Part shown: piece by piece, positions 5,651-35,023 of the stretch
How the letters are laid out: every line of letters starts with the position of its first letter
How positions within the stretch are numbered: the stretch's first letter is position 1
Source of the DNA: Candidatus Rokuibacteriota bacterium
GTDB taxonomy: Bacteria > Methylomirabilota > Methylomirabilia > Rokubacteriales > CSP1-6
DNA: 49,503 bases
Direction: 5' to 3'
Assembly: GCA_016209635.1 (NCBI GenBank)
Contig: JACQWC010000153.1
Span: 1 to 49,503 of the forward strand
Translations under genes and position numbers: made by a program
The notes under the pieces: model-generated
Databases searched by the model: none
Told to the model about the DNA's origin: nothing
Seen by the model: only the letters and a program-made list of their open reading frames with translations

Positions 5651-5785
5651 AAACGGGGCGCTGGTCCGAGCAGCCGCTTCAGCCCCATTGGTGGGGACTC
5701 AGACCACCGTCGGCCGGCCAGCACTGCGCGATCACCCGCTCGGGGACTCGTGGGGCGCCCCAGTGCGGCACCGGGCCGCCACCGC

Positions 5786-6556
5786 TCATTCCGGGCGCCG
5801 GAAGTCGGGCCCGGTCAGCCGGCCGAGCGCGGTCGTGCCCGCCTGGGCGCCCCATTGCCGCCCCCGCAGCATGATGGCGCCCGCCCGCGCCTCCCGGCCG
5901 GCACCGTCCGGCACGGCGAAGCGCCGCTGCAGCGTGGCGCTCAGCAGCGAGAGCGCATAGCAGCACACGAAGTAGACGATGGCCACGAACCCGTAGATCT
6001 CGTACGACCGGTATACCCGGTTGTTCACGTTATTGGCCGCCCGGAAGAACTCCGTCACACCGATGATGTAGGCCAGCGAGGTTCCCATGAACAGAGCGAT
6101 GAACCGACTGACGAGGGCCGGGCTCATGTTCCGGAGCGCCTGAGGCAGCACCACATGGCGCATGGCCTGGAGGTGGGTGAGCCCGACGGCCCGGGCCGCC
6201 TCCACCTGCCCTTTCGGGATCGACTGGATCCCCGCCCGGATCACCTCCGCCATGTAGCTCGTGTTGAACAGGATGAGGGCGAGGAGGGCCGCGTTGACGG
6301 GCGTCGTGGCCCGGCCGGTGAGCACGGGCATGAGGAAGAACACCCAGAAGATGACCATGATCAGCGGCACCGTGCGGAGAAGGTCGATGTAGAGGATGGC
6401 CGGCCACCGCAACCACCACCACGGGGAAAGCCGTAGCATCGCGAACATCGTGCCGCCTGCGAAGCTGCCAGCCATGCTGACCGCCGCAAGGATGACCGTC
6501 CACCGGAGGCCGGTGAGCATGTAGGGCAGGTTCTCGACGATGACCTGGAGATCCAC
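5786..6556 (-). CDS. Polar amino-acid ABC transporter permease (HisM/GlnP family)
   Basis: Inner-membrane permease of about 256 residues. The HisMQ-type pattern is visible: LRWTVILAAVSMAGSFAGG (first TM), LYIDLLRTVPLIMVIFWVF, then the EAA loop QVEAARAVGLTHLQAMRHVVLPQAL that docks on the ATPase. The ORF track merges it with an upstream shadow; I chose the GTG at 6556, just after the stop (6562) of the sister permease, giving MDLQVIVENLPYMLTGLRW. The last 40 or so residues after QRRFAVPDG are longer than usual and low in recognisable features. It is the last gene of the transporter operon and would pair with the preceding permease. Confidence 0.88.
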   Translation of the reverse strand: MDLQVIVENLPYMLTGLRWTVILAAVSMAGSFAGGTMFAMLRLSPWWWLRWPAILYIDLLRTVPLIMVIFWVFFLMPVLTGRATTPVNAALLALILFNTSYMAEVIRAGIQSIPKGQVEAARAVGLTHLQAMRHVVLPQALRNMSPALVSRFIALFMGTSLAYIIGVTEFFRAANNVNNRVYRSYEIYGFVAIVYFVCCYALSLLSATLQRRFAVPDGAGREARAGAIMLRGRQWGAQAGTTALGRLTGPDFRRPE

Positions 6557-22731: not shown

Positions 22732-25206
22732 GTGGCGCAGATCTCCTTCTTCGGCCTCTCCGCGGTTCTTGTGGCACTTGCGCTGTTCGTGTGGCGAGCG
22801 AAACCCGGCAATCAGATTAACCGGTGGTTTGCAGTCCAGACCGTTTTCTTTGCAAGCTGGGTCTTCGGAATCGGGGGACTCCAAGGCGGTATCCATCTTG
22901 ATGTCTGGGGACGCTTTACTTTCGCGAGCGCGAGCCTAATCCCAGCGGCCTTCCTCGCTTTTACGCAATGTTATCCTACTCCTAGCCGCTGGCCACAGCC
23001 TCTTCTTTCTCGGACAATATTCGCGATTGCCGTCGCTTTCGCAGTTCTCTCGCTCACGACTCCGTTGCTTGTCTATGACGTCTCTGTGGGTCCAGAGGGA
23101 CTCGTGCGAAGGACGGGGCCTTTATATCCCGCCTTCTCGGTCTACTTCCTCATCACCTGGCTTGCGGCACTTTGTGTGTTCGTCCGGAAATGGCTCAACT
23201 CACGTGGCCGTGCTCGAGCCCAACTCCAATACCTTGGCACTGGCATTATCATTTCCGGCGCCGGAGGAATTGGAGTAAACCTCTTGCTCCCGCTCATCAC
23301 GGGCCGCTCAACGTACAGCTGGATGGGCCCCTACTTCAGCCTTGTATTTGTCGCGATGGTTGCCCATGCCATCATTCGCCACCGCCTGATGGACCTACGA
23401 CTCGCCATCAACAGGAGTCTCGCGTATGCCGTTGCGATCGTTTGCGTCTCCGCCGTAATTATCACCTTAGGGCGATTCGCCGTCAGGGGATGGACAGCCG
23501 GCACCGTTCCACTGCCTCACGATGTCTTGGTGATCCTCGTTGTCGGACTCCTAATGCTATCCACACCGATCCAGAGTCTATTCGATCGACTTATTGATCC
23601 GTACCTTTACCGAGGCCGCATCGAGTACCCGTCAGCACTGCGTGAAGCAACGCACCGACTCAGCCGCCTCATGCAACCCGCAGAGCTGGCAGCCGAACTC
23701 CGTCAAATTCTTACAGCAGCGTTTGTACCCGATTCTTTCGCGATGCTCGTCAAACCATTCGAAGCTCACGCTCTCGACCATCTTGGCGAAGACACGCCGG
23801 CGGTTGTAGACCTCCTGACCATTGCAATTCTTACAACCGATCGATCCAGCCCCTCTGTCCTAATGGTTAATCCGGGAGACGAGACAGGTCCGAGCAAGAT
23901 CGCTCACGACGCCCTCCGCGCTTCAGGAATTGAAATCGTTGTGACGCTCGGCCGTCGTGGCCAGTTGCTCGGCGCCATCCTGCTGGGTCCCCGGAAGAGC
24001 GGAGACACCTACTTTGCCAAAGATTTGGCGTTCATCGAGTCGCTAGCTGAACTCGCCTCGATTGCTCTCGATAACGCCCTACTTTATCGGCAGCGTATTC
24101 AGATCCTCGAGTACTCCGAGAGACTGCTCGAATCACTCGACTCGGCGGTCGTCGCCGTCGACGTGGTAGGCAAGATCGCGAGCTTCAATCCGGCCGCAAA
24201 GACGTTGCTTGGATTGCGTGACGCCACCCGCGGCGCCCCGCTCGACGCGGTGCCTCCGGAAATCGGCTGGGCTCTTGCCCTCGCGATTCGTGGCTCATCA
24301 GCGCCCCGCGAAGTCGAGGCGAAGATTGACCACGAAGCTCGCGGTCTCCTGCCAGTTATTCTTTCGACCGCCGTCCTCCATGACGATCGCCAGGAAATCA
24401 CAGGAGCTCTCGTCGTCGTGACCGACCTCTCGACCGTCAAGGCTCTGGAACGCAACCAGAGACGCGTCGAGCACCTCGCCCTGATGGCCCGCTTCTACGC
24501 GGGGATTGCACATGAGATTCGTAGCCCACTCACCTCGATCTCAAACTTCATCGCGATGCTCCCCGATCGATTCAACGACCCCGAGTACCGCGACACAGCC
24601 GTGCGTTTACTGCCCATCGAGGTTGCGCGGATCGTGCGTCTAGCGGATCGCCTGCGCCTGATGGCGCCAAGTGAGGGGGGCACACTCACCCGGGTCGCTC
24701 TCGGTCGCCTACTGAGCGACATAGTCGCAATCCACACCAGTGCGGCTGAAGAGCAAGGCGTGAAGATCCTTCTGCATTGTCCTGAGGAGCTACCCAGAAT
24801 TCTTGGCGATACGGGTCAACTTATACAGCTCTTCGTCAATCTTTTGAACAACGCGGCCGAGGCGATGCTCGCTGGAGGACTTGTCCTCATCGAGGTTGTT
24901 CACATCAGCGAGCGTAGCGGCAGCGAGCTTATCAGGGTTCGGGTGATCGACGATGGCGTCGGGATCAGTCCCACGCTCCGCAATAGGATATTTCAGCCCT
25001 TCTTCACCACCAAGCCGGCTGGTACTGGGCTTGGTTTACCAATCTGTCGCGAAATTGCCGACTTCCATCATGCGCGTCTCGAGCTCCTGCCCCAGTCAAG
25101 TGGCCGAGGTACCATTGCCCAGATCGAATTTCCCTGCCTAGCGTTAGAGGCGACGGACCAACACGAGTCATTCGATTCACGCGGTGCTAGAGGCAGTCAC
25201 GCTTGA
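22732..25206 (+). CDS. Multi-TM sensor histidine kinase (7TM-GAF-PAS-HisKA-HATPase), copy 1
   Basis: An 824-residue membrane kinase. Residues 1-215 form a seven-helix sensory region of the HisKA_7TM type, with conserved VWGRFTFA, PAAFLAF and IIRHRLMDLRLAINRSLAYA; two more hydrophobic segments follow to about 285. Then a GAF-like region (about 295-445), a PAS domain (LLESLDSAVVAVDVVGKIASFNPAAKTLLGL), the H-box AGIAHEIRSPLTSI with His594, and an ATPase with N-box LFVNLLNNAAEAM, VIDDGVGIS and FFTTKPAGTGLGLPI. All catalytic motifs are intact. The start is GTG, 12 bp after the ketosynthase stop. GC is clearly lower than in the flanks. It is a tandem paralogue of the next gene and has no cognate DNA-binding regulator nearby. 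Confidence 0.9.
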   Translation: MAQISFFGLSAVLVALALFVWRAKPGNQINRWFAVQTVFFASWVFGIGGLQGGIHLDVWGRFTFASASLIPAAFLAFTQCYPTPSRWPQPLLSRTIFAIAVAFAVLSLTTPLLVYDVSVGPEGLVRRTGPLYPAFSVYFLITWLAALCVFVRKWLNSRGRARAQLQYLGTGIIISGAGGIGVNLLLPLITGRSTYSWMGPYFSLVFVAMVAHAIIRHRLMDLRLAINRSLAYAVAIVCVSAVIITLGRFAVRGWTAGTVPLPHDVLVILVVGLLMLSTPIQSLFDRLIDPYLYRGRIEYPSALREATHRLSRLMQPAELAAELRQILTAAFVPDSFAMLVKPFEAHALDHLGEDTPAVVDLLTIAILTTDRSSPSVLMVNPGDETGPSKIAHDALRASGIEIVVTLGRRGQLLGAILLGPRKSGDTYFAKDLAFIESLAELASIALDNALLYRQRIQILEYSERLLESLDSAVVAVDVVGKIASFNPAAKTLLGLRDATRGAPLDAVPPEIGWALALAIRGSSAPREVEAKIDHEARGLLPVILSTAVLHDDRQEITGALVVVTDLSTVKALERNQRRVEHLALMARFYAGIAHEIRSPLTSISNFIAMLPDRFNDPEYRDTAVRLLPIEVARIVRLADRLRLMAPSEGGTLTRVALGRLLSDIVAIHTSAAEEQGVKILLHCPEELPRILGDTGQLIQLFVNLLNNAAEAMLAGGLVLIEVVHISERSGSELIRVRVIDDGVGISPTLRNRIFQPFFTTKPAGTGLGLPICREIADFHHARLELLPQSSGRGTIAQIEFPCLALEATDQHESFDSRGARGSHA

Positions 25207-25240
25207 GCGAAAGCTGCCTCACTTCCGAGTGACCTAAACG

Positions 25241-27682
25241 ATGGTTCAATTCTCCCTGCTTGCCGTCGCTGCCACCCTCGTGGCTCTCGCAGCGTTTGTC
25301 TGGCGCGCTCGACCGGGGAACGCTATCAACTGTTGGTTCGCTGCGTTTACGATGTTCGTCGGGTGCTGGACTGTCGGCATAGCCGGTCTGCAATCCGGAA
25401 CCTATCTTGAGGTGTGGGGGCGTTTCACGTTCGCGGCGGCAGCCTTCATTCCAGCTGCGTTCCTCGCCTTCACGCGATGCTATCCGACGCTAAGCCGCTG
25501 GCCATCACCTACGGTCATCCGAAGCACTCTCGTCCTTGCAGCTATATTCGCGTTCATGTCCGGATTCACTTCCCTCCTCTTCTATGACGTCTCGATGACC
25601 GAGCAAGGCCTGGCTCGCAAACCCGGTTCGCTCTATGTCCCATTCGCCCTCTATTTTGTAATCACCTTCGGCGGCGCCATCGCCCTCCTCATTTCGAAAT
25701 GGTGGCACGTGCAGGGACTTGCGCGAGCTCAACTTCAGTTCCTGGGGAGCGGGGTCATCATTTCAGGCGCAGGGGCCATCAGCGCGAATCTACTCCTTCC
25801 ACTCGCCACCGGCCGCTCCACATATGCGTGGCTCGGACCCTCCTTTGGTGTCGTACTTGTCGCCCTCGTGGCGCACGCGATCATTCGGCACCGCTTGATG
25901 GACCTGCGGCTGGTGATTCATCACGGGCTGGCGTACGCCCTGGCGATGCTTCTGTCCCTGGCGCCCGTGGCGGTTCTTCTCGCCTTCTTCTGGCCACGAC
26001 TCTCGAGCCACCTGCGCCGCGGTGAACTGCTCATCTTTCTGGCGGCGATCGCGCTGGTCAGCCTGCTCGTCCCACTCACGAAGGATCTCGCCGAGCGAGT
26101 CCTCGATCGATACGTCTACCGGACGCACGCGAACTACCAGCGGATCGTTCGCGAAGCCAGCCAGGTTCTGACCGGCGTCCTGGAGCTCAAGGTGCTGCTG
26201 CCCTTCCTGAGCCGCACCGTCGCTGCCTCGACGGAAGCGGAAGGCGTCGGAATCTACCTGCAAGCCGGGCCGGACTTCGTCAAGGCCAGCGCCGAACGAC
26301 GCCATCCCGAAGGCCGCTTCGAAAGCCCGGAGAGAGCGCCCGCCTCGGTCGCCGAGCTGCTGGTGGAGACGAGACAACCGCTGCTCGCCGAGGAGATCGC
26401 CCGGGAAGGGCCGTCCGATGGAACGCGGCTCGGCTGGCAGGACCTGACGCGGCTCAACTGGTCGCTCGTGCTGCCGCTCTTGTCGAAGAACGCCGTCATC
26501 GGCGCGATCGTCGTGGGGCCCAAGCGCTCGGGGGACCCGTTCTACCCTCAAGACTTGGATCTCCTGATGACGCTGGCCAACCAGGCCGGGATCGCGATCA
26601 AGAACGCCCAGCTCTACGCGCAGGTGGTTCTGGTGAACGAATACATCCAGAACATCGTGGCGACGATCGAGAGCGGGGTCGTGGCCATCGACCCAGCCGG
26701 CCGCATTACCTTGTTCAATCGGGCCGCCGAGCAGCTGACCGGCCACTCATCGGCGGAGATGACGCTCCAGCACGTGTCGGCCCTCCCGGCCTCCCTCAGC
26801 GAGCCGCTGCTCACCACGCTGGACGACGGGCTCGGTCGCACCGAGCCGGACGTCGACCTGCCCGGCGCCGGCGTGACCCGTCCCGTCATCTGCACGACCT
26901 CTCCCCTGCGCGACCCGGCCGGAAGCGTCCTCGGAGCCGTCGCGGTCTTCAGCGATCTGACCCCGCTGAAGGAGCTCGAGATCGAGCGTCGCCGGGCGGA
27001 GCGGCTGGCCTACTTCGAGGTACTGGCCTCGGGGATCGCGCACGAGATCAAGAACCCGCTCGTGGCCGTGAAGACCTTCGCCCAGCTCGTGCCGCGACGG
27101 CAGGGTGACGAGCGGTTCCTCGACAACTTCAGCCGCATCGTCACGCGCGAGATCGCACGGATGGAGCGGCTGGTGGACCGCCTGCGCACGCTCTCGCGAC
27201 TGAGCGAGCGCCCGCGCCACTCGCTCGATCTGCGCACGCCGATCAGCGAGGCGCTCGAATTCCTCCAGGCCGCATTCGACGAGAAGCGGATCGCGGTGAC
27301 GGTCGACCTCGGCGACGCGCCGCGCTTCGTCGCGGGCGACCACGGCGAGCTGGAGCAGCTCTTCCTCAACCTCACGCTGAACGCCCACGAGGCGATGGCG
27401 CCGGGGGGCGCGCTCGAAGTCCGACTCGCCGCCACCGAGAGCGCCGCGATCGTGACGGTCGCGGACACGGGCGCGGGCGTCCCGCCCGAGCTGCTCGAGC
27501 GTATCTTCGATCCGTTCTTCACCACGAAGCAGCGCGGCTCGGGGCTGGGTCTCGCGATCTGCGCCGGCATTGCCGACGCCCATCGGGCCAAGCTCCGGGT
27601 CGCGAACCGCACGGGTGGCGGGGCCATCTTCACCGTCGAGTTTCCGCTCACGGCGCCCGTCACGGCTCCGGTACAAGCATGA
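25241..27682 (+). CDS. Multi-TM sensor histidine kinase (7TM-GAF-PAS-HisKA-HATPase), copy 2
   Basis: An 813-residue paralogue of the preceding kinase with the same layout; the first 220 residues are more than half identical (VWGRFTFAAAAFIPAAFLAF, IIRHRLMDLRLVIHHGLAYA). Two further TM helices, a GAF domain (about 300-455), PAS (NIVATIESGVVAIDPAGRI), H-box SGIAHEIKNPLVAVKTF with His601, N-box LFLNLTLNAHEAMAPGG, VADTGAGVPPE and FFTTKQRGSGLGLAI are all intact. The first 650 bp have the lower GC of the upstream kinase, whereas from about 25,880 the sequence returns to high GC. The stop overlaps the next ATG (ATGA), so it is translationally coupled to the pseudokinase. Confidence 0.9.
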   Translation: MVQFSLLAVAATLVALAAFVWRARPGNAINCWFAAFTMFVGCWTVGIAGLQSGTYLEVWGRFTFAAAAFIPAAFLAFTRCYPTLSRWPSPTVIRSTLVLAAIFAFMSGFTSLLFYDVSMTEQGLARKPGSLYVPFALYFVITFGGAIALLISKWWHVQGLARAQLQFLGSGVIISGAGAISANLLLPLATGRSTYAWLGPSFGVVLVALVAHAIIRHRLMDLRLVIHHGLAYALAMLLSLAPVAVLLAFFWPRLSSHLRRGELLIFLAAIALVSLLVPLTKDLAERVLDRYVYRTHANYQRIVREASQVLTGVLELKVLLPFLSRTVAASTEAEGVGIYLQAGPDFVKASAERRHPEGRFESPERAPASVAELLVETRQPLLAEEIAREGPSDGTRLGWQDLTRLNWSLVLPLLSKNAVIGAIVVGPKRSGDPFYPQDLDLLMTLANQAGIAIKNAQLYAQVVLVNEYIQNIVATIESGVVAIDPAGRITLFNRAAEQLTGHSSAEMTLQHVSALPASLSEPLLTTLDDGLGRTEPDVDLPGAGVTRPVICTTSPLRDPAGSVLGAVAVFSDLTPLKELEIERRRAERLAYFEVLASGIAHEIKNPLVAVKTFAQLVPRRQGDERFLDNFSRIVTREIARMERLVDRLRTLSRLSERPRHSLDLRTPISEALEFLQAAFDEKRIAVTVDLGDAPRFVAGDHGELEQLFLNLTLNAHEAMAPGGALEVRLAATESAAIVTVADTGAGVPPELLERIFDPFFTTKQRGSGLGLAICAGIADAHRAKLRVANRTGGGAIFTVEFPLTAPVTAPVQA

Positions 27683-29628
27683 AGACGGTGCTCCTCGTCA
27701 CGCCCGACGAGCGGCTGCGCGCGCGTCTCGGCCGGGCGCTCGCCGCCTACTCGGTGTTCGTCGCGCAGAACGACGGCGATGCTCTCAAAACGCTCCGGCT
27801 CATCGAGATCGATCTGGTGATCCGCGAGGGCGCCGGACCGGGACACGGGCTCGAGGCGTTCGTGTCGAGACTGAAGGAGGTCGCGCCGGAGGCCCTGACC
27901 ATCGCGATCGAACCGGCACTGGACGAGGTCGACGCCGCCGATTTCGTCGTTCCCGGCGGTTTCGGCCAGCGCGAGCTCGAGGCCGCGCTTCGCCGCGCCG
28001 CCGAGAAGCACCGCCTCGCGCGGGAACTCGCGACCCTCCGTTCGCGGGCCGCATCCCCGCCGCCGGCCCCGTCCGCCGCCGAGGCCCCCTGGGACGGCGC
28101 CACGCTGGCGCGGATCCTGACCGAGTTCACCCGCGTGTTCGCCGCGGGCTTCGATCTCTCGCGGCTCCTCGACATGTTCCTCGACGCGATCGGCAGGCTG
28201 GTCCGACCCGTACGGATGGCGCTGCTGCTCCCCGACCCGAACGGCGAGGACTATCGGATCCGGGCACACCGCGGCTTGCCGCCGCAGCTCGTCGATTCGC
28301 TGCGCCTGTCGGCGACCACCGGGCTCTCGCGCTGGCTCGCCACCCAGGGTCGGCCGGCGCGGGTGCAAGACCTCGCCGACGCGGAGGTCACCCGCGAGCT
28401 GACGCTGCTCCAGGGCGTCGTCGCCATTCCGTTGCTGGCGAACGGCGAGCTGGTCGCGATGCTCGTCATCGGCCAGCCGGTGATGGGCGGACAGTACGAT
28501 CGGCGCGAGACGGAAACCCTGTTCGATCTGGCGGCGCATGTGGCCACCGCGATCCGCAACATCGCGCTCCACGAGCAGCTCCGGCGCGAGATGGAATTCA
28601 ACGAGCGGATCCTCGCGCACATGTCGAGCGGCGTCATCACGATCGGCCGCGACCACCGGGTGGGAACGCTGAACCGGCGCGCCGAGGAGATCCTGGAGCT
28701 CGCCGCGCAGACCGTCCTCGGCCAAGATCTCCGGGTCCTGCCGTCCCCCCTGGGCGATATGCTCTTCGGGACGCTCTCGTCCGGTCACGCGCTGGCCCGG
28801 TCCGAGATCCAGCTGGCGCTCCGCGGGCGATGGCTCGAAGTCTCGACGTACCCGATCTACGGCGATGAGCCCACGCCGCTCGGCGCGGTCCTCGTCTTCG
28901 AGGACCTGACGGCGCAGAAGGAGCTCGCGAACCAGAAGCGCCAGGCCGAGCAGCTCCAGCTCCTCACCCGCGTCGTCGCGCGCATCGCCGACGAGATCAA
29001 GAATCCGCTCGTGTCCATCAACACCTTCATGGAGCTGATCGAAGAGCGCTTCGACGACCCGGATTTCCGCAAGCACTTCTCCGCCGTCGTGGGACGGGAC
29101 GTGCGGCGCCTCGTCCAGGTCTTCGAAAAACTTGCGGGGCTCGTCAGCGAAGGTGAGTTAAACTTCGTGCCGGTGGACGTCCATACGGTCATTGATGAAC
29201 TGGTGGCCGCGATCGAGCTGGGCGACGACACGATCGGCAAGCCCGTCCAGCTCGAGGTCGCCCGCGAGACGACCCCGCAGGTGGTCAAGGTCGACCCGGC
29301 CCAGCTCCGCAAGGCATTTTCCTACCTCGTCCGATACCTCGGCCACAACTCTCCCGTCGAGCCGGCGAAGGTCTCGATCTCGGTCGGACGGCATCCCGAC
29401 GGGGACGGGGATGCGGGCGTCCGGGTCCTCTTCACCTCGCGCACGGCTGCGGTCGCTCCGGACAAGCTCCAGCGCCTGTTCGACCCGGTCCAGATGGTGC
29501 AGGAGAGCCTGATCGACGTCGGTCCGGCCGTGAGCCAGCGCCTGATCGAGGCCTTCGGCGGACGCCTGCGCCTGCGCCAGAGCCGGCACGAGCTGGCCTT
29601 CCTCGTGACGCTCCCCGCGGCCCCATGA
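27679..29628 (+). CDS. Degenerate (pseudo) histidine kinase: pseudo-receiver, GAF, PAS, HisKA-like, HATPase-like
   Basis: 649 residues, soluble. Residues 1-115 have a receiver fold pattern (KTVLLVTPDERLRARLGRAL), but the acidic pair, phospho-acceptor Asp (replaced in DLVIREGAG) and the KP motif are lost. GAF (about 150-305) and PAS (ILAHMSSGVITIGRDHRVGTL) follow. The H-box reads VARIADEIKNPLVSI, with Asp438 exactly where the phosphorylated His should be. The ATPase region lacks an N-box, DxGxG and the GTGLGL loop (AFSYLVRYLGHNSP, RVLFTSRTAAVAP). The frame is long, undamaged and coupled at both ends to active kinases, so it is probably a selected non-catalytic partner rather than a decaying gene. 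Confidence 0.8.
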   Translation: MKTVLLVTPDERLRARLGRALAAYSVFVAQNDGDALKTLRLIEIDLVIREGAGPGHGLEAFVSRLKEVAPEALTIAIEPALDEVDAADFVVPGGFGQRELEAALRRAAEKHRLARELATLRSRAASPPPAPSAAEAPWDGATLARILTEFTRVFAAGFDLSRLLDMFLDAIGRLVRPVRMALLLPDPNGEDYRIRAHRGLPPQLVDSLRLSATTGLSRWLATQGRPARVQDLADAEVTRELTLLQGVVAIPLLANGELVAMLVIGQPVMGGQYDRRETETLFDLAAHVATAIRNIALHEQLRREMEFNERILAHMSSGVITIGRDHRVGTLNRRAEEILELAAQTVLGQDLRVLPSPLGDMLFGTLSSGHALARSEIQLALRGRWLEVSTYPIYGDEPTPLGAVLVFEDLTAQKELANQKRQAEQLQLLTRVVARIADEIKNPLVSINTFMELIEERFDDPDFRKHFSAVVGRDVRRLVQVFEKLAGLVSEGELNFVPVDVHTVIDELVAAIELGDDTIGKPVQLEVARETTPQVVKVDPAQLRKAFSYLVRYLGHNSPVEPAKVSISVGRHPDGDGDAGVRVLFTSRTAAVAPDKLQRLFDPVQMVQESLIDVGPAVSQRLIEAFGGRLRLRQSRHELAFLVTLPAAP

Positions 29629-31937
29629 CCACCGCAGCACCGCCGATCCTCCAGTCGCGCATCCTCGTCGTCGACGACGAGTTGGGGCCGCGCGAGTCGC
29701 TCCGCATGCTGCTCAAGCCGTCCTACCAGGTGCGAACGGCGGAGAGCGGTCGCGTCGCGCTGGACGAGCTGCCGAAGTTCCGGCCCGATCTCGTGATCAT
29801 GGACATCAAGATGCCCGAGATGGACGGGCTGGAGGTCCTGCGGCGCATCAAACGCATCGAGCCGTCCATCGAGGTCGTCATGATCACGGCGTACGCGTCG
29901 CTCGAGACGGTGAAGCTGGCCCTGACGCACGGCGCGTTCGAATACCTCATCAAGCCGTTCTCGCGCCAGGACCTCGAAGACGTCGTGCGCCGCGCGCTGC
30001 TCCGCCGCCAGGCCGACCTCGGCACGCGGGGCCAGGTCACGAAGCTGGTGGAGGAGATGCGGAGCCTGGCCGCGAAGACGCGCCAGCTCGAGGAGACCGC
30101 ACGGCGGGAAGCGGCCGAGCAGTCGTTGCGGGTGACGCAGCTCTCGATCCTGAGGGAGATCTCCGGCACGATCGTCGGCCAGCTCGACCTCCACGAGGTG
30201 ACGACCGCGGTCATGGAGCAGCTTCGCACGGCGCTCGGCTATGACAGCGTGATGGTCACGCTGGAGGCCCCGCCCTCGACCGAAGCCGAGAGCGCCTGCT
30301 TCGTGACCTGCCAAATCCGCGACGCCGAGGGGCTGCTCGGGTACCTCGTCGTCGACAACCGCCCGTCCTGGCGTTCCATCGATCCCCGCGAGCGCGAGCT
30401 CCTGGAGATGCTCTCGGAGTACCTCGCGATCGCCGTGCGGAACTCACGGCTGTATGGCGAGATCGCCGAGACCAAGCGCTCCCTCGAGCAGCTGATCGCG
30501 TCGGCCGGCGACGCCATCATCTCCGTGAACGCGTCGAACTACATCCACGGCTGGAATCCCGCGGCCGAGCGCATCTTCGGGCTCGGCGCGGGCTCGGCGG
30601 TGGGCCGTCCGATCACCGACTTCCTGCCGAGCGCCCACTACGCGGAGGCCCGGCGGCGGCTGGCGGACGGCGCCCCCATGCACGCGTTCGAGACCACGAC
30701 GACGTCCGGACGGACGCGCCCGACCGAGCTCGCCGTGACGCTGTCGGCGCTGCGCGACCGCCAGGGGCAACTCGAAAAGCTGATCGCCATCGTTCGTGAT
30801 GTCACCGCGCAGCGCGCGCTGGAAAACCAGCTGCACCAGTCCGAGAAGTTGACGGCGCTCGGGCAGCTCGCGGGCGGCATCGCGCACGACTTCAACAATC
30901 TCCTGCAGGCGATCCTCGGCTACGCCCAGCTCATGCGGCAGAATCTGGACAACGCCGAGCTCGTGCAGCGGTCGCTGCGGGTGGTCGAGGATGCGGCGCT
31001 CGACGGGTCCGAGACGGTGCGCCGGATCCAGCAGTTCTCTCGCCTCCGTCCGGATGAGGAGTTCATGGCCGTCGACGTCAATCAGATCGTGCAGAACGCC
31101 GTCGCCATCACCCGGCCACGCTGGGATGAGAAGATCGCCCACGAGAATCGCCCCCTCGACCTCCGGCTCGAGCTCCGGGCCGTCCCGCCCATCAACGGCC
31201 GCCCGGCCGCGCTGACCGAGCTGATGACCAACCTGATCCTCAACGCGATGGACGCCATGCCCGAGGGGGGCACGCTCACGATCGGCACGCGCGTGGAGGA
31301 CGGGCGGTCGGTCGTCGTGACGGTCGCCGACACCGGTATCGGGATGCCCGAGGCGGTGCGCCGCCGCGTCTTCGAGCCGTTCTTCTCGACCAAGGGCGAG
31401 CGCGGCTCCGGCCTCGGCCTCTCGATGGCGTACTCCATCGCGAAGCGCCACGGCGGCGAGATCGGCGTCGAGAGCGAGCCCGGCCGCGGGGCGATGTTCA
31501 CGCTCACCTTCCCGGCCGCCGCCGAGGCCTCCGGAAAGGCGACGCCCGCCTCGGCGACCCGGCCCCGCCGGACGGCGCGCATCCTCATCGTGGACGACGA
31601 GCCGAAGGTGCTCGGCACACTCGCGGAGATGCTCAAGAGCGCCGGTCACACCGTGACACCGGCGTCGACGGGCGCCGCGGCGCTGGCGGACTACGCACGG
31701 GGCCGTTTCGACGTGGTCCTCACCAACCTCGGCATGGTCGGCATGAACGGCTGGGAGCTCGCCGAGCGGCTGCGCGTCGTCGATCGGTCGGTGCCAATCC
31801 TCTTCATCACGGGCTGGGCGCTGCGCGACGAGGACCATCCTCGCCTGATGACGCTCAACATCCACCGGTGTCTCTTCAAGCCCGTGCGTCCCGACGAGCT
31901 CGACGCGGCGATTCAGGCCGCGCTCCAGCCCGCCTGA
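29625..31937 (+). CDS. Soluble hybrid histidine kinase REC-GAF-PAS-HisKA-HATPase-REC
   Basis: 770 residues. N-terminal receiver (ILVVDDELGPRESLRML) with phospho-acceptor Asp60 in VIMDIKMPEMDG and Lys in YLIKPFSRQ. A coiled-coil linker (about 125-170) leads to GAF (about 175-285), PAS (ASAGDAIISVNASNYIHGWN), H-box AGGIAHDFNNLLQAILGYAQL with His421, and an intact ATPase (LMTNLILNAMDAMPEGG, VADTGIGMPE, GERGSGLGLSM). The C-terminal receiver (ARILIVDDEPKVLGTLAEML) has Asn701 in place of the acceptor (VLTNLGMVGMNGWE), so it should not be phosphorylated. The intact N-terminal receiver could accept phosphate from the two membrane kinases. Overlaps the pseudokinase stop by 4 bp. Confidence 0.9.
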   Translation: MTTAAPPILQSRILVVDDELGPRESLRMLLKPSYQVRTAESGRVALDELPKFRPDLVIMDIKMPEMDGLEVLRRIKRIEPSIEVVMITAYASLETVKLALTHGAFEYLIKPFSRQDLEDVVRRALLRRQADLGTRGQVTKLVEEMRSLAAKTRQLEETARREAAEQSLRVTQLSILREISGTIVGQLDLHEVTTAVMEQLRTALGYDSVMVTLEAPPSTEAESACFVTCQIRDAEGLLGYLVVDNRPSWRSIDPRERELLEMLSEYLAIAVRNSRLYGEIAETKRSLEQLIASAGDAIISVNASNYIHGWNPAAERIFGLGAGSAVGRPITDFLPSAHYAEARRRLADGAPMHAFETTTTSGRTRPTELAVTLSALRDRQGQLEKLIAIVRDVTAQRALENQLHQSEKLTALGQLAGGIAHDFNNLLQAILGYAQLMRQNLDNAELVQRSLRVVEDAALDGSETVRRIQQFSRLRPDEEFMAVDVNQIVQNAVAITRPRWDEKIAHENRPLDLRLELRAVPPINGRPAALTELMTNLILNAMDAMPEGGTLTIGTRVEDGRSVVVTVADTGIGMPEAVRRRVFEPFFSTKGERGSGLGLSMAYSIAKRHGGEIGVESEPGRGAMFTLTFPAAAEASGKATPASATRPRRTARILIVDDEPKVLGTLAEMLKSAGHTVTPASTGAAALADYARGRFDVVLTNLGMVGMNGWELAERLRVVDRSVPILFITGWALRDEDHPRLMTLNIHRCLFKPVRPDELDAAIQAALQPA

Positions 31938-32108
31938 GCGTCTCGCCAGCTGGTCGGCTGGCACGCGACTCGTGGATTCGTGTTGCGGACTCCAACCCGC
32001 TCCGCTATGTTCGAGACGCACGAGCAAAAGGGGGCTCGAATTCTTGTCGCTCGGCGTCTTGTTAGCCCTTGGTAAGTAGCGTCGTGGCGCATGGCGCAGG
32101 AGGGTGCG

Positions 32109-32534
32109 ATGGGAAAGATCAACTGGAGTCGGGTGTTTTTGGGCGGGTTAGTCGCGTGGGTCGTAGCGATCCTGCTTGGGGGCGTAGCAATGTTTCTCTA
32201 CGTGCGAACCGAGGTGACTGCGACCTGGAAAGGACTGGGCCTCGAATTCCCACAAGGGCCAGGGCTTGCTGTGTTCTGGCTCGTGTTCGTCTACGTGGCC
32301 GTGGTGATGGCTATCTGGCTATATGCGGCCATCCGGCCGCGCTACGGGCCGGGGGTAAAGACTGCTGTGGGCGCCGGCCTAGCCTTCTGGCTCATCGGAA
32401 AGTTCCTGCACACGATGTTCCTGGGTGCGGTAGGAGTGTATCCCATACGGTTTGTGGTGATAAGCATGGCCACCGACCTGGTGGTGACGGTCGCGGCTAC
32501 GGTCGCGGGCGCCTGGATGTACAAGGAAGAGTAG
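32109..32534 (+). CDS. Small four-TM membrane protein of unknown function
   Basis: 141 residues from the ATG at 32109, chosen because AGGAGGG ends 4 bp upstream; the ORF-track ATG at 32091 precedes that ribosome site. Four hydrophobic helices are evident (VFLGGLVAWVVAILLGGVAM, LAVFWLVFVYVAVVMAIWLY, a third around LAFWLIGKFLHTMFLG, and VISMATDLVVTVAATVAGAW). The protein ends MYKEE. It resembles anonymous integral membrane proteins common in soil bacterial genomes; no functional motif is visible. The 171 bp before it (31938-32108) hold no recognisable gene. Confidence 0.7.
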   Translation: MGKINWSRVFLGGLVAWVVAILLGGVAMFLYVRTEVTATWKGLGLEFPQGPGLAVFWLVFVYVAVVMAIWLYAAIRPRYGPGVKTAVGAGLAFWLIGKFLHTMFLGAVGVYPIRFVVISMATDLVVTVAATVAGAWMYKEE

Positions 32535-32579: not shown

Positions 32580-32663
32580 TCAGGCCTTCTTCATGGGCCG
32601 GCCGCAGCAGATCTTCTGCGCCATCGCGACCTTCCCGCACTTCGCGCAGCGGAATCCAGCCAT
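32580..32663 (-). CDS. 27-residue Cys-rich zinc-ribbon-like microprotein downstream of thiolase
   Basis: Too short for the ORF track. The minus-strand frame starts with ATG 4 bp after the thiolase stop and encodes a 27-residue peptide. It contains CAKCGK near the N-terminus and ICCGRPMKK at the C-terminus, i.e. a CxxC plus CC arrangement able to hold one zinc ion or an Fe-S centre. No long alternative frame covers this stretch, and the spacing implies co-transcription with the thiolase. Thiolases of some lineages work with zinc-ribbon/OB-fold DUF35 partners, but this peptide is far smaller. Function unknown. Confidence 0.55.
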   Translation of the reverse strand: MAGFRCAKCGKVAMAQKICCGRPMKKA

Positions 32664-32667
32664 CGTC

Positions 32668-33813
32668 CTACAACCGCTCGATGATGGTGGCGATGCCCTG
32701 ACCGAACCCGATGCACATCGTCTGGAGCCCGTAGCGCGTGCCGGTGCGCTCGAGTTCGTGGAGGAGCGTGGTCATGAGCTTGGCGCCCGTGCAGCCCAGG
32801 GGGTGGCCGAGCGCGATCGCCCCGCCGTTCACGTTCACCTTCGCCATGTCCGGGTGAAGCTCGCGCTCCCAGGCCAGCACGACCGACGCGAAGGCCTCGT
32901 TGATCTCGAAGCGATCGATGTCGTCGAGCCCGAGCCCGGCCTTCTTCAGCACGCGCTGGGTGGCCGGGATCGGCCCCGTCAGCATGATGGTCGGATCCAC
33001 GCCGGCCAGCGCGGTCGCGACCACGCGGGCGCGCGGGCGGAGCCCGAGCGCCTTCGCCTTCTCGGCCGACATGACCATGAGCGCTGCGGCGCCGTCCGAG
33101 ATCTGCGACGAGTTGGCCGCGGTCACGACGCCGTCGGGCTTGAAGGATGGCTGGAGCGCGGCCATCTTCTCCCGGTTCACGGGGACCCGCACCCCCTCGT
33201 CGGTGTCGAACACGGAGCCGTCGGGGAGGTTCACGGGGACGATCTCGCGCTTGAACCGGCCCTCGGCGATCGCGCGGCCCGCCTTCTCGTGGCTCTCGGC
33301 GGAAACCGCGTCCAGCTCCTCGCGCTTGAGCCCCCACGTCTCCGCGATCAGCTCGGCGGAGATGCCCTGCGGGACGATGTTGTATCGCTCCTGGAGCCGG
33401 GGCGACAGTGGTCCCGCGCCGGGCCCCGTCGCGTTCGAGCCCATCGGCACCCGCGTCATGTGCTCGACGCCGCCGGCGATGACCGCCTCATACTGTCCCG
33501 ACATGACGCCCATGGCGGCGAAGTTCGCCGCCTGCTGGCCCGAGCCGCACATCCGGTCGAGCGTCGTCCCGCAGACGTCGAGCGGCAAGCCCGCGATGAG
33601 CGCCGCGTTCCGCGCGATGTTCATGCCTTGCTCGCCGAGCTGGTCGACGCAGCCGAGGATCACGTCCTCCACTTCGGTCGCATCGATCCCGACGCGCTCG
33701 ACCAGCGCCCGCAGCGTAAGCGCGATCAGGTCGTCCGGGCGGATCCCCGAGAGCCTGCCGTTCCGCTTCCCCACCGCCGTCCGCACTGTCCCCACGATCA
33801 TCGCGTCTCGCAT
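32668..33813 (-). CDS. Thiolase (acetyl-CoA C-acyltransferase)
   Basis: A 381-residue thiolase that either cleaves 3-ketoacyl-CoA with CoA or condenses acetyl-CoA. The acyl-binding Cys lies in [14 protein letters not shown] (near residue 87), the active-site His in [18 protein letters not shown], and the second Cys in [20 protein letters not shown] is also standard. Length and motif spelling fit degradative FadA/acetyl-CoA acetyltransferase types; the sequence does not separate these. It has its own promoter candidate upstream and the Cys-rich microprotein directly downstream. Confidence 0.93.
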
Positions 33814-33914: not shown

Positions 33915-34817
33915 CTACGTCGCGCGCTTGACCTGGTCGGCGAGCTTGCAGAAGGCGCAGACCGTGCCGGTCGTCACCTGACCGCAGCGCGCGCACTCGC
34001 GGAGCGGCGGGGCCGGGGCGCCCGCGAAGACCGGGCGCGCCCGCTCGAGGAACCCGAAGAGGAAGTTGTGCTTGGCGCCGGGCGACGCTTCCTCCAGGCG
34101 GTTCAGGATCTCCTTGTGGGCGATCGAGGTCGCGCCCTCGGCGAACGGGCACTCGTCCACGATGTAGTCGATCCGGCGGAGGAAGGCGAACGCGGCCGTC
34201 TCCCGCTCGGAGAGCCGGTAGAGCGGCTTCACCCGGCGCACCAGCTTCGCGTGCGTGGAGGGGAGCGCGGGCGACTGGCGAGGCAGCGCGTCCGTCTGCC
34301 AGTGCATCACCGAGCCGAACAGCGTCGCCGCCTCGTCGTCGAGGTTGTGGCCGGTGGCGACGACCGGGAAGCCGTGCTCGAGCGCGGCGCGGTTCATCAG
34401 GTAGCGCTTGGAGAGCCCGCATCCGGAGCAGGGCGGCCGGCGAGTGACCCGCTTGATGACGGGCACCGGCGCCCCGACCGCCTCGGCGACGCTCGAGACG
34501 ATCAGGGGCACGCCCCGCGCCGAGGCGAACCTTTCACACGTGGCCCGGGATTCGACGGAATAGTCGAAGATGCCCAGGTCGAGATGGAGGCCGCTCGTCT
34601 CGTACCCCTCGTCGATCAGCACGTCCCAGAGGGCGAGGGAGTCCTTGCCGCCCGACACGGCGACGAGCACCCGCTCGTCGCGGGTGAACATGCGGTGCTT
34701 CCGGATGGCCTCGCGGACCTGGTTGCGGAAGAACTCGAGGAAGTCCGGCGCGCAGAACGCCGCGTTGTGCCGGCGCAGCTCGATGCTCGCCTGCTCGCCG
34801 CACTTGCGGCACTTCAC
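33915..34817 (-). CDS. ttuA: TtuA/TtcA-family tRNA 2-thiolation enzyme
   Basis: A 300-residue ATP pyrophosphatase that puts sulfur on a tRNA uridine, by analogy with TtuA (m5U54 of the T loop). The PP-loop is VAVSGGKDSLALWD. Zinc fingers flank the core: CRKCGEQ...NAAFC at the N-terminus and CARCGQVTTGTVCAFC at the C-terminus, as in the TtuA subgroup. The catalytic Fe-S cysteines are seen in PPCSGCGLSKRYL and DECPFAEG, with VVATGHNLDDEA between. The start is GTG, overlapping the stop of the TtuB-like gene (GTGA), which strongly supports the sulfur-carrier pairing. Confidence 0.88.
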   Translation of the reverse strand: MKCRKCGEQASIELRRHNAAFCAPDFLEFFRNQVREAIRKHRMFTRDERVLVAVSGGKDSLALWDVLIDEGYETSGLHLDLGIFDYSVESRATCERFASARGVPLIVSSVAEAVGAPVPVIKRVTRRPPCSGCGLSKRYLMNRAALEHGFPVVATGHNLDDEAATLFGSVMHWQTDALPRQSPALPSTHAKLVRRVKPLYRLSERETAAFAFLRRIDYIVDECPFAEGATSIAHKEILNRLEEASPGAKHNFLFGFLERARPVFAGAPAPPLRECARCGQVTTGTVCAFCKLADQVKRAT

Positions 34818-35023
34818 GGCCGGGTCCCCCCACCGCCCGACATCACCGGACGCAGCTCGATCGTGTCGTGGTCGGCGACCACCTGGTCCGCGGTGATCAG
34901 CGTGTCGCCGCGGATCACCAGGACCGTCTCGGGGATCACGTCGAGCTCCTTCAGGACGTCCTTCACGCGCCGCCCGCCCGCCACCTCGATCTCGCGCCGG
35001 GGGTTTCGGAGGACGACCTTCAT
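34814..35023 (-). CDS. ttuB: TtuB/ThiS/MoaD-like sulfur-carrier protein
   Basis: A 69-residue ubiquitin-like protein (VVLRNPRREIEVAGGRRVKDVLKELDV, then VLVIRGDTLITADQVV and DTIELRPVMSGG). It should be adenylated at a C-terminal Gly-Gly and carry thiocarboxylate sulfur to TtuA. TtuB normally ends in SGG. Here the frame continues as SGGGGTRP, so five residues follow the first diglycine and three follow the last. Processing to expose the diglycine, or tolerance of the tail, must be assumed if it works as in Thermus. Its stop overlaps the ttuA GTG. Confidence 0.8.
   Translation of the reverse strand: MKVVLRNPRREIEVAGGRRVKDVLKELDVIPETVLVIRGDTLITADQVVADHDTIELRPVMSGGGGTRP

Follow-up and report, generated by a model that had tools for sequence, protein, structure and literature searches.

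A conserved, basic 27-residue CxxC/CC microprotein, probably metal-folded, encoded behind a thiolase gene in Rokubacteria

Desulforedoxin is a homodimer with an Fe(Cys)4 centre as its hallmark. Together with the N-terminal domain of desulfoferrodoxin it shares the succession of CxxCG and CCGxPMK with the microprotein described here, which differs in its length of 27 aa, in being strongly basic and free-standing, and in the loop joining the cysteine pairs, which at nine residues is six residues shorter than its counterpart in the solved structure of desulfoferrodoxin (1dfx). Very small, free-standing proteins with four cysteines are also found among the one-domain zinc-finger μ-proteins of Haloferax volcanii; for HVO_2753 and HVO_0758 the zinc finger, essential cysteines and deletion phenotypes have been demonstrated (PMC10716476). 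The Haloferax proteins are longer and carry two C(P)XCG motifs. No homology is claimed; by analogy, they may be considered the closest functional analogues of the microprotein. Zinc-ribbon proteins of the DUF35 type (PF12172/PF01796) are encoded beside thiolase-superfamily genes, e.g., SSO2064 and PhlB (PMC2954200), and resemble the microprotein in that their genes adjoin those of this superfamily. However, DUF35 proteins are longer, at about 140 aa, and contain an OB fold, which cannot be accommodated in 27 aa. The combination of zinc ribbon, OB-fold and profile match that defines DUF35 was absent from the microprotein: Pfam yielded no DUF35 match at E values up to 1, and the match to PhlB in a sequence search of the PDB was insignificant (E 1.1).

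The window, i.e., the whole analysed stretch of 49,503 nt from a Candidatus Rokuibacteriota bacterium, carries the microprotein gene on the minus strand (32580..32663, stop codon included). Read from its ATG at 32663 down to 32580, the frame encodes MAGFRCAKCGKVAMAQKICCGRPMKKA. The initial annotation had noticed a tiny complete frame starting 4 nt past a thiolase stop codon, with CAKCGK and ICCGRP and too short for the usual length cut-offs; the frame and both motifs are present, and the last point is supported on length alone. The thiolase stop codon occupies 32668-32670 on the same strand, leaving a spacer of four bases (GACG) to the ATG, and the stop/start junction (32664..32675, minus strand; tgtAGGAcgATG) contains an AGGA Shine-Dalgarno-like stretch that overlaps the thiolase stop. 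One of the motifs GGAG, GAGG or AGGA preceded the gene in 25 of 33 relatives, the window's own gene not being counted, versus 19 % of random positions. A six-frame translation of the 49.5-kb window revealed the microprotein as the sole frame with a start codon and the pattern C..C-x(5-17)-CC. Terminator or promoter signals were looked for around the gene and were not found.

Thirty-four distinct nucleotide versions of the gene encoded 25 distinct proteins. Their mean entropy was 0.27, 0.27 and 0.80 bits at codon positions 1, 2 and 3, while the flanks on both sides were unconserved with 1.7-1.8 bits, and the pooled pN/pS was 0.23 in the microprotein frame versus 0.55-2.0 in the five other frames. 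The substitution pattern, a check which the initial annotation had suggested, thus indicated coding. Since variation is concentrated on the third codon position and the flanks are unconserved, the frame is, as judged from sequence variation, a genuine protein-coding gene; synonymous-biased substitution was found together with a kept start, stop and ribosome-binding site, as expected of a small gene. A chance ORF was ruled out by the codon-position pattern, the pN/pS and the unconserved flanks. A conserved RNA element in place of a protein was rejected, because Rfam gave no match and the variation sits on the third codon positions of this very frame. In the 24 genomes allowing a comparison of both genes, the pN/pS was 0.25 for the microprotein versus 0.20 for the thiolase.

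Seven residues, C6, C9, C19, C20, G21, P23 and M24, were invariant in an alignment of 20 diverse versions. The microprotein of the window has seven Lys/Arg and zero acidic residues; the rokubacterial versions read had six to nine Lys/Arg and no or one acidic residue each. Scores against curated families stayed under the cut-offs, with 19.3 bits for Desulfoferrod_N of Pfam (PF06397, cut-off 23) and 14.2 bits for desulf_FeS4 of NCBIfam (TIGR00319, cut-off 36.05 bits), and full membership in the desulforedoxin family was rejected on these grounds. Weak Desulfoferrod_N matches (E up to 0.1, best 9.6e-5) were obtained for 18 of the 20 members; they extended over the two cysteine pairs and GxPMK and contained a single gap. 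In an alignment to 1dfx the same elements paired up, with a six-residue gap between them. The ligand order of desulforedoxin, CxxC, CC and then GxPM, is present in the microprotein, but the pairs are separated by nine residues instead of about 15. The scores under cut-off and the six-residue gap point to a desulforedoxin-like Cys4 knuckle and not to a family member by cut-off; a shortened version of this knuckle is the best reading of the sequence. Binding of a metal is very probable from the cysteine pattern, and zinc would be a likelier ligand than iron. The initial annotation was probably correct in its reading of metal binding.

Rokubacteria are soil and groundwater bacteria. According to a protein search, 37 of the 57 family genomes carried a close relative of the microprotein, with an open frame and 63-100 % identity, as did one genome from another family of the same order; a profile search recovered the same relatives plus a divergent type. 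The genomes surveyed were mostly MAGs, so that some absences may be assembly gaps. A second type, with the motif CCGAPMKK, occurred in further Rokubacteria and in three genomes of the Zixibacteriota group and shared the CxxC-x9-CC spacing and the basic charge. The forms of the three Zixibacteriota-group genomes comprised 34-35 aa and had strong Shine-Dalgarno sequences and basic N-termini. Nine residues separated the cysteine pairs in every version read, in both types and both phyla. Copies of the CCGAPM type were not near the orthologous thiolase. The ORFs next to these copies and to the unlinked copies varied, and a mutual comparison by eye revealed no common partner. Three weak, diverged matches (E 7e-6 to 4e-5) in a genome of genus g19 (G084; contigs C421, C64 and C363) perhaps represent a multi-copy variant. 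In GWA2_70_23, a second copy (L063) has lost the first ligand (C6Y) beside an intact copy (L048) in the same genome; both are located away from the thiolase gene.

The genes preceding the microprotein gene lie on the minus strand as well. The thiolase (381 aa, 32668..33813) has the domains Thiolase_N and Thiolase_C and belongs to the acetyl-CoA C-acyltransferase subfamily TIGR01930. It is preceded by a gene for a TtuA-like tRNA 2-thiouridine synthetase (300 aa, 33915..34817) with a PP-loop and the TtuA LIM N-terminal domain, a neighbour kept in most relatives, and by a gene for a ThiS/SAMP2-like sulfur carrier (69 aa, 34814..35023) that overlaps the TtuA start by 4 nt. The usual order in relatives was ThiS-like, TtuA-like, a variable insert, thiolase, microprotein and a convergent sensor-kinase gene. 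The sulfur carrier keeps the motif ELRPV(M/I)SGG in the window and in the loci L041-L073. In nearly all genomes read, a variable C-terminal tail follows the GG (GGTRP in the window), with L057 alone stopping at GG; with such a tail, trimming would be needed to expose the diglycine. One match to Prok-JAB (PF14464) above the cut-off in the window's genome (G000:C21:6129-6464) is a candidate for the trimming protease. On the plus strand, four consecutive large frames (22732-31937) resemble sensor kinases and response regulators by eye. The last of these corresponds to the convergent gene with which the thiolase-microprotein block ends on its far side in most relatives. A 147-aa membrane-like protein is encoded between this kinase gene and the microprotein gene (32091-32534, plus strand); it was without counterpart in the relatives read and without a Pfam match at cut-off.

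An orthologous thiolase was present in 42 genomes of the family, including two (G034, G082) in which the gene is cut by a contig end. In 29 of these 42 genomes the microprotein gene started at most 300 nt downstream of the thiolase gene on the same strand, often within less than 35 nt, and the same adjacency was observed in one genome of another family. The initial annotation had suggested to search for homologues behind thiolase genes and would have been contradicted by missing conservation there; these 29 genomes keep the microprotein in this place. The adjacency gave rise to the proposal of a metal-binding partner or stability factor of the thiolase: the microprotein would bind the enzyme and stabilise it or tune acyl-CoA binding, by analogy with the DUF35 proteins, zinc-ribbon proteins known from thiolase operons and from the PhlABC complex (PMC2954200). 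Co-occurrence was indeed positive. The thiolase was found in 32 of 37 genomes with the microprotein versus 10 of 20 others (32/5/10/10; Fisher p = 0.005, phylogeny not corrected), and this leaves room for a thiolase-related role in most lineages. However, strict co-occurrence, as expected of a dedicated partner, was not observed. Five family genomes (G007, G010, G023, G030, G033) had an intact microprotein without the orthologous thiolase, and ten had the thiolase without a close-type microprotein. Six of these ten carried the thiolase and the kinase gene on one stretch; here, in four genera (G002, G003, G029, G074, G075, G086), the thiolase adjoins the sensor-kinase gene with no such motif between. 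Furthermore, the two genes were on separate contigs in G009 and G094, and the microprotein gene was upstream of the thiolase gene in G021. In G010 (L047), a C-terminal thiolase remnant (5744-5911) with the last ~26 residues nearly intact was located between the TtuA gene and the intact microprotein gene; by its sequence, it is a thiolase gene caught in decay. Adjacency to the thiolase is frequent, yet neither necessary nor sufficient. The pattern of presence and absence and the remnant in G010 weaken the case for a dedicated thiolase subunit, and since the microprotein outlasts the loss of the thiolase, it is probably not such a subunit. Also against a partnership speak the ordinary acetyl-CoA C-acyltransferase type of the neighbour and the missing OB-fold of the microprotein. 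Other thiolase paralogs might serve as partner in the genomes without the ortholog. Of the initial proposal, the small gene itself and its frequent place behind the thiolase were confirmed, and its four cysteines are arranged as is typical of metal sites, but the specificity for the thiolase was not borne out by the five and ten discordant genomes. We consider the absence of a dedicated thiolase role likely and a thiolase partner unlikely.

In several genomes that have lost the thiolase, the microprotein gene is still linked to the ThiS and TtuA genes, and thus an accessory role in tRNA thiolation is worth considering. ThiS, TtuA and microprotein share block and strand, the order in G010 is TtuA, thiolase remnant and microprotein, and in the thiolase-less genomes G007, G023, G030 and G033 the TtuA gene lies on the same contig at a distance of at most 10 kb. 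The microprotein could help TtuA to hold tRNA or metal, or could serve it by handling sulfur or iron. With its action on tRNA and its dependence on an Fe-S cluster (PMC7138817), TtuA would be well matched by a basic metal knuckle. However, TtuA was detected in 49 of the 57 family genomes, so that co-occurrence says little, and the linkage may simply reflect synteny. ThiS-TtuA occurs without the microprotein gene in several genomes, and the copies in G009 and G094 are unlinked. An accessory of ThiS-TtuA is hence improbable, somewhat more so than a thiolase partner. We hold it to be similarly doubtful that the two types constitute a previously undescribed cross-phylum family of basic Cys4 proteins of 27-35 residues with a minimal desulforedoxin-like fold, a family that would assist the ribosome or tRNA thiolation of the TtuA type by binding RNA or tRNA. 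A minimal desulforedoxin, acting as a redox-active iron protein that carries electrons or scavenges reactive oxygen, would agree with the best family match, to desulforedoxin and the desulfoferrodoxin N-terminus, and with the CxxC and CC ligand pairs, but is very unlikely in view of the match under cut-off, the loop shortened by six residues, the strongly basic character, the lack of an attached superoxide-reductase domain and a whole-genome scan of the 57 family genomes that found no PF06397 protein over the cut-off.

We lean, by a small margin over even odds, towards an autonomous basic Cys4 knuckle microprotein at the end of the ThiS-TtuA-thiolase block that is independent of the thiolase. 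The product would fold round one tetrahedrally coordinated metal ion, most likely Zn2+, with C6, C9, C19 and C20 as ligands, and would form a desulforedoxin-like knuckle with an inter-pair loop 6 residues shorter than that of desulfoferrodoxin. Seven Lys/Arg and zero acidic residues would provide a compact, positively charged surface, which suggests as most likely function that of an autonomous adaptor. This adaptor may dock on RNA, on the ribosome or on an acidic protein surface, comparable to the archaeal zinc-finger μ-proteins. RNA or the ribosome can be named as target only tentatively; the basic charge by itself is no proof of RNA binding. The gene would usually close the ThiS-TtuA-thiolase block, and the thiolase would not be needed.

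The conserved, basic microprotein is, from its sequence, probably metal-folded, and no curated Pfam or NCBIfam family covers it at cut-off. With 27 residues, it would rank among the smallest self-standing metal-folded proteins. This size makes it accessible to chemical synthesis and NMR, by which the minimum sequence for a desulforedoxin-like site may be defined. The microprotein is under a constraint similar to that of its 381-residue thiolase neighbour and exemplifies a conserved gene that escapes length cut-offs in an uncultivated phylum. The loss of the neighbouring thiolase and the retention of the small gene illustrate that adjacency does not equal partnership.
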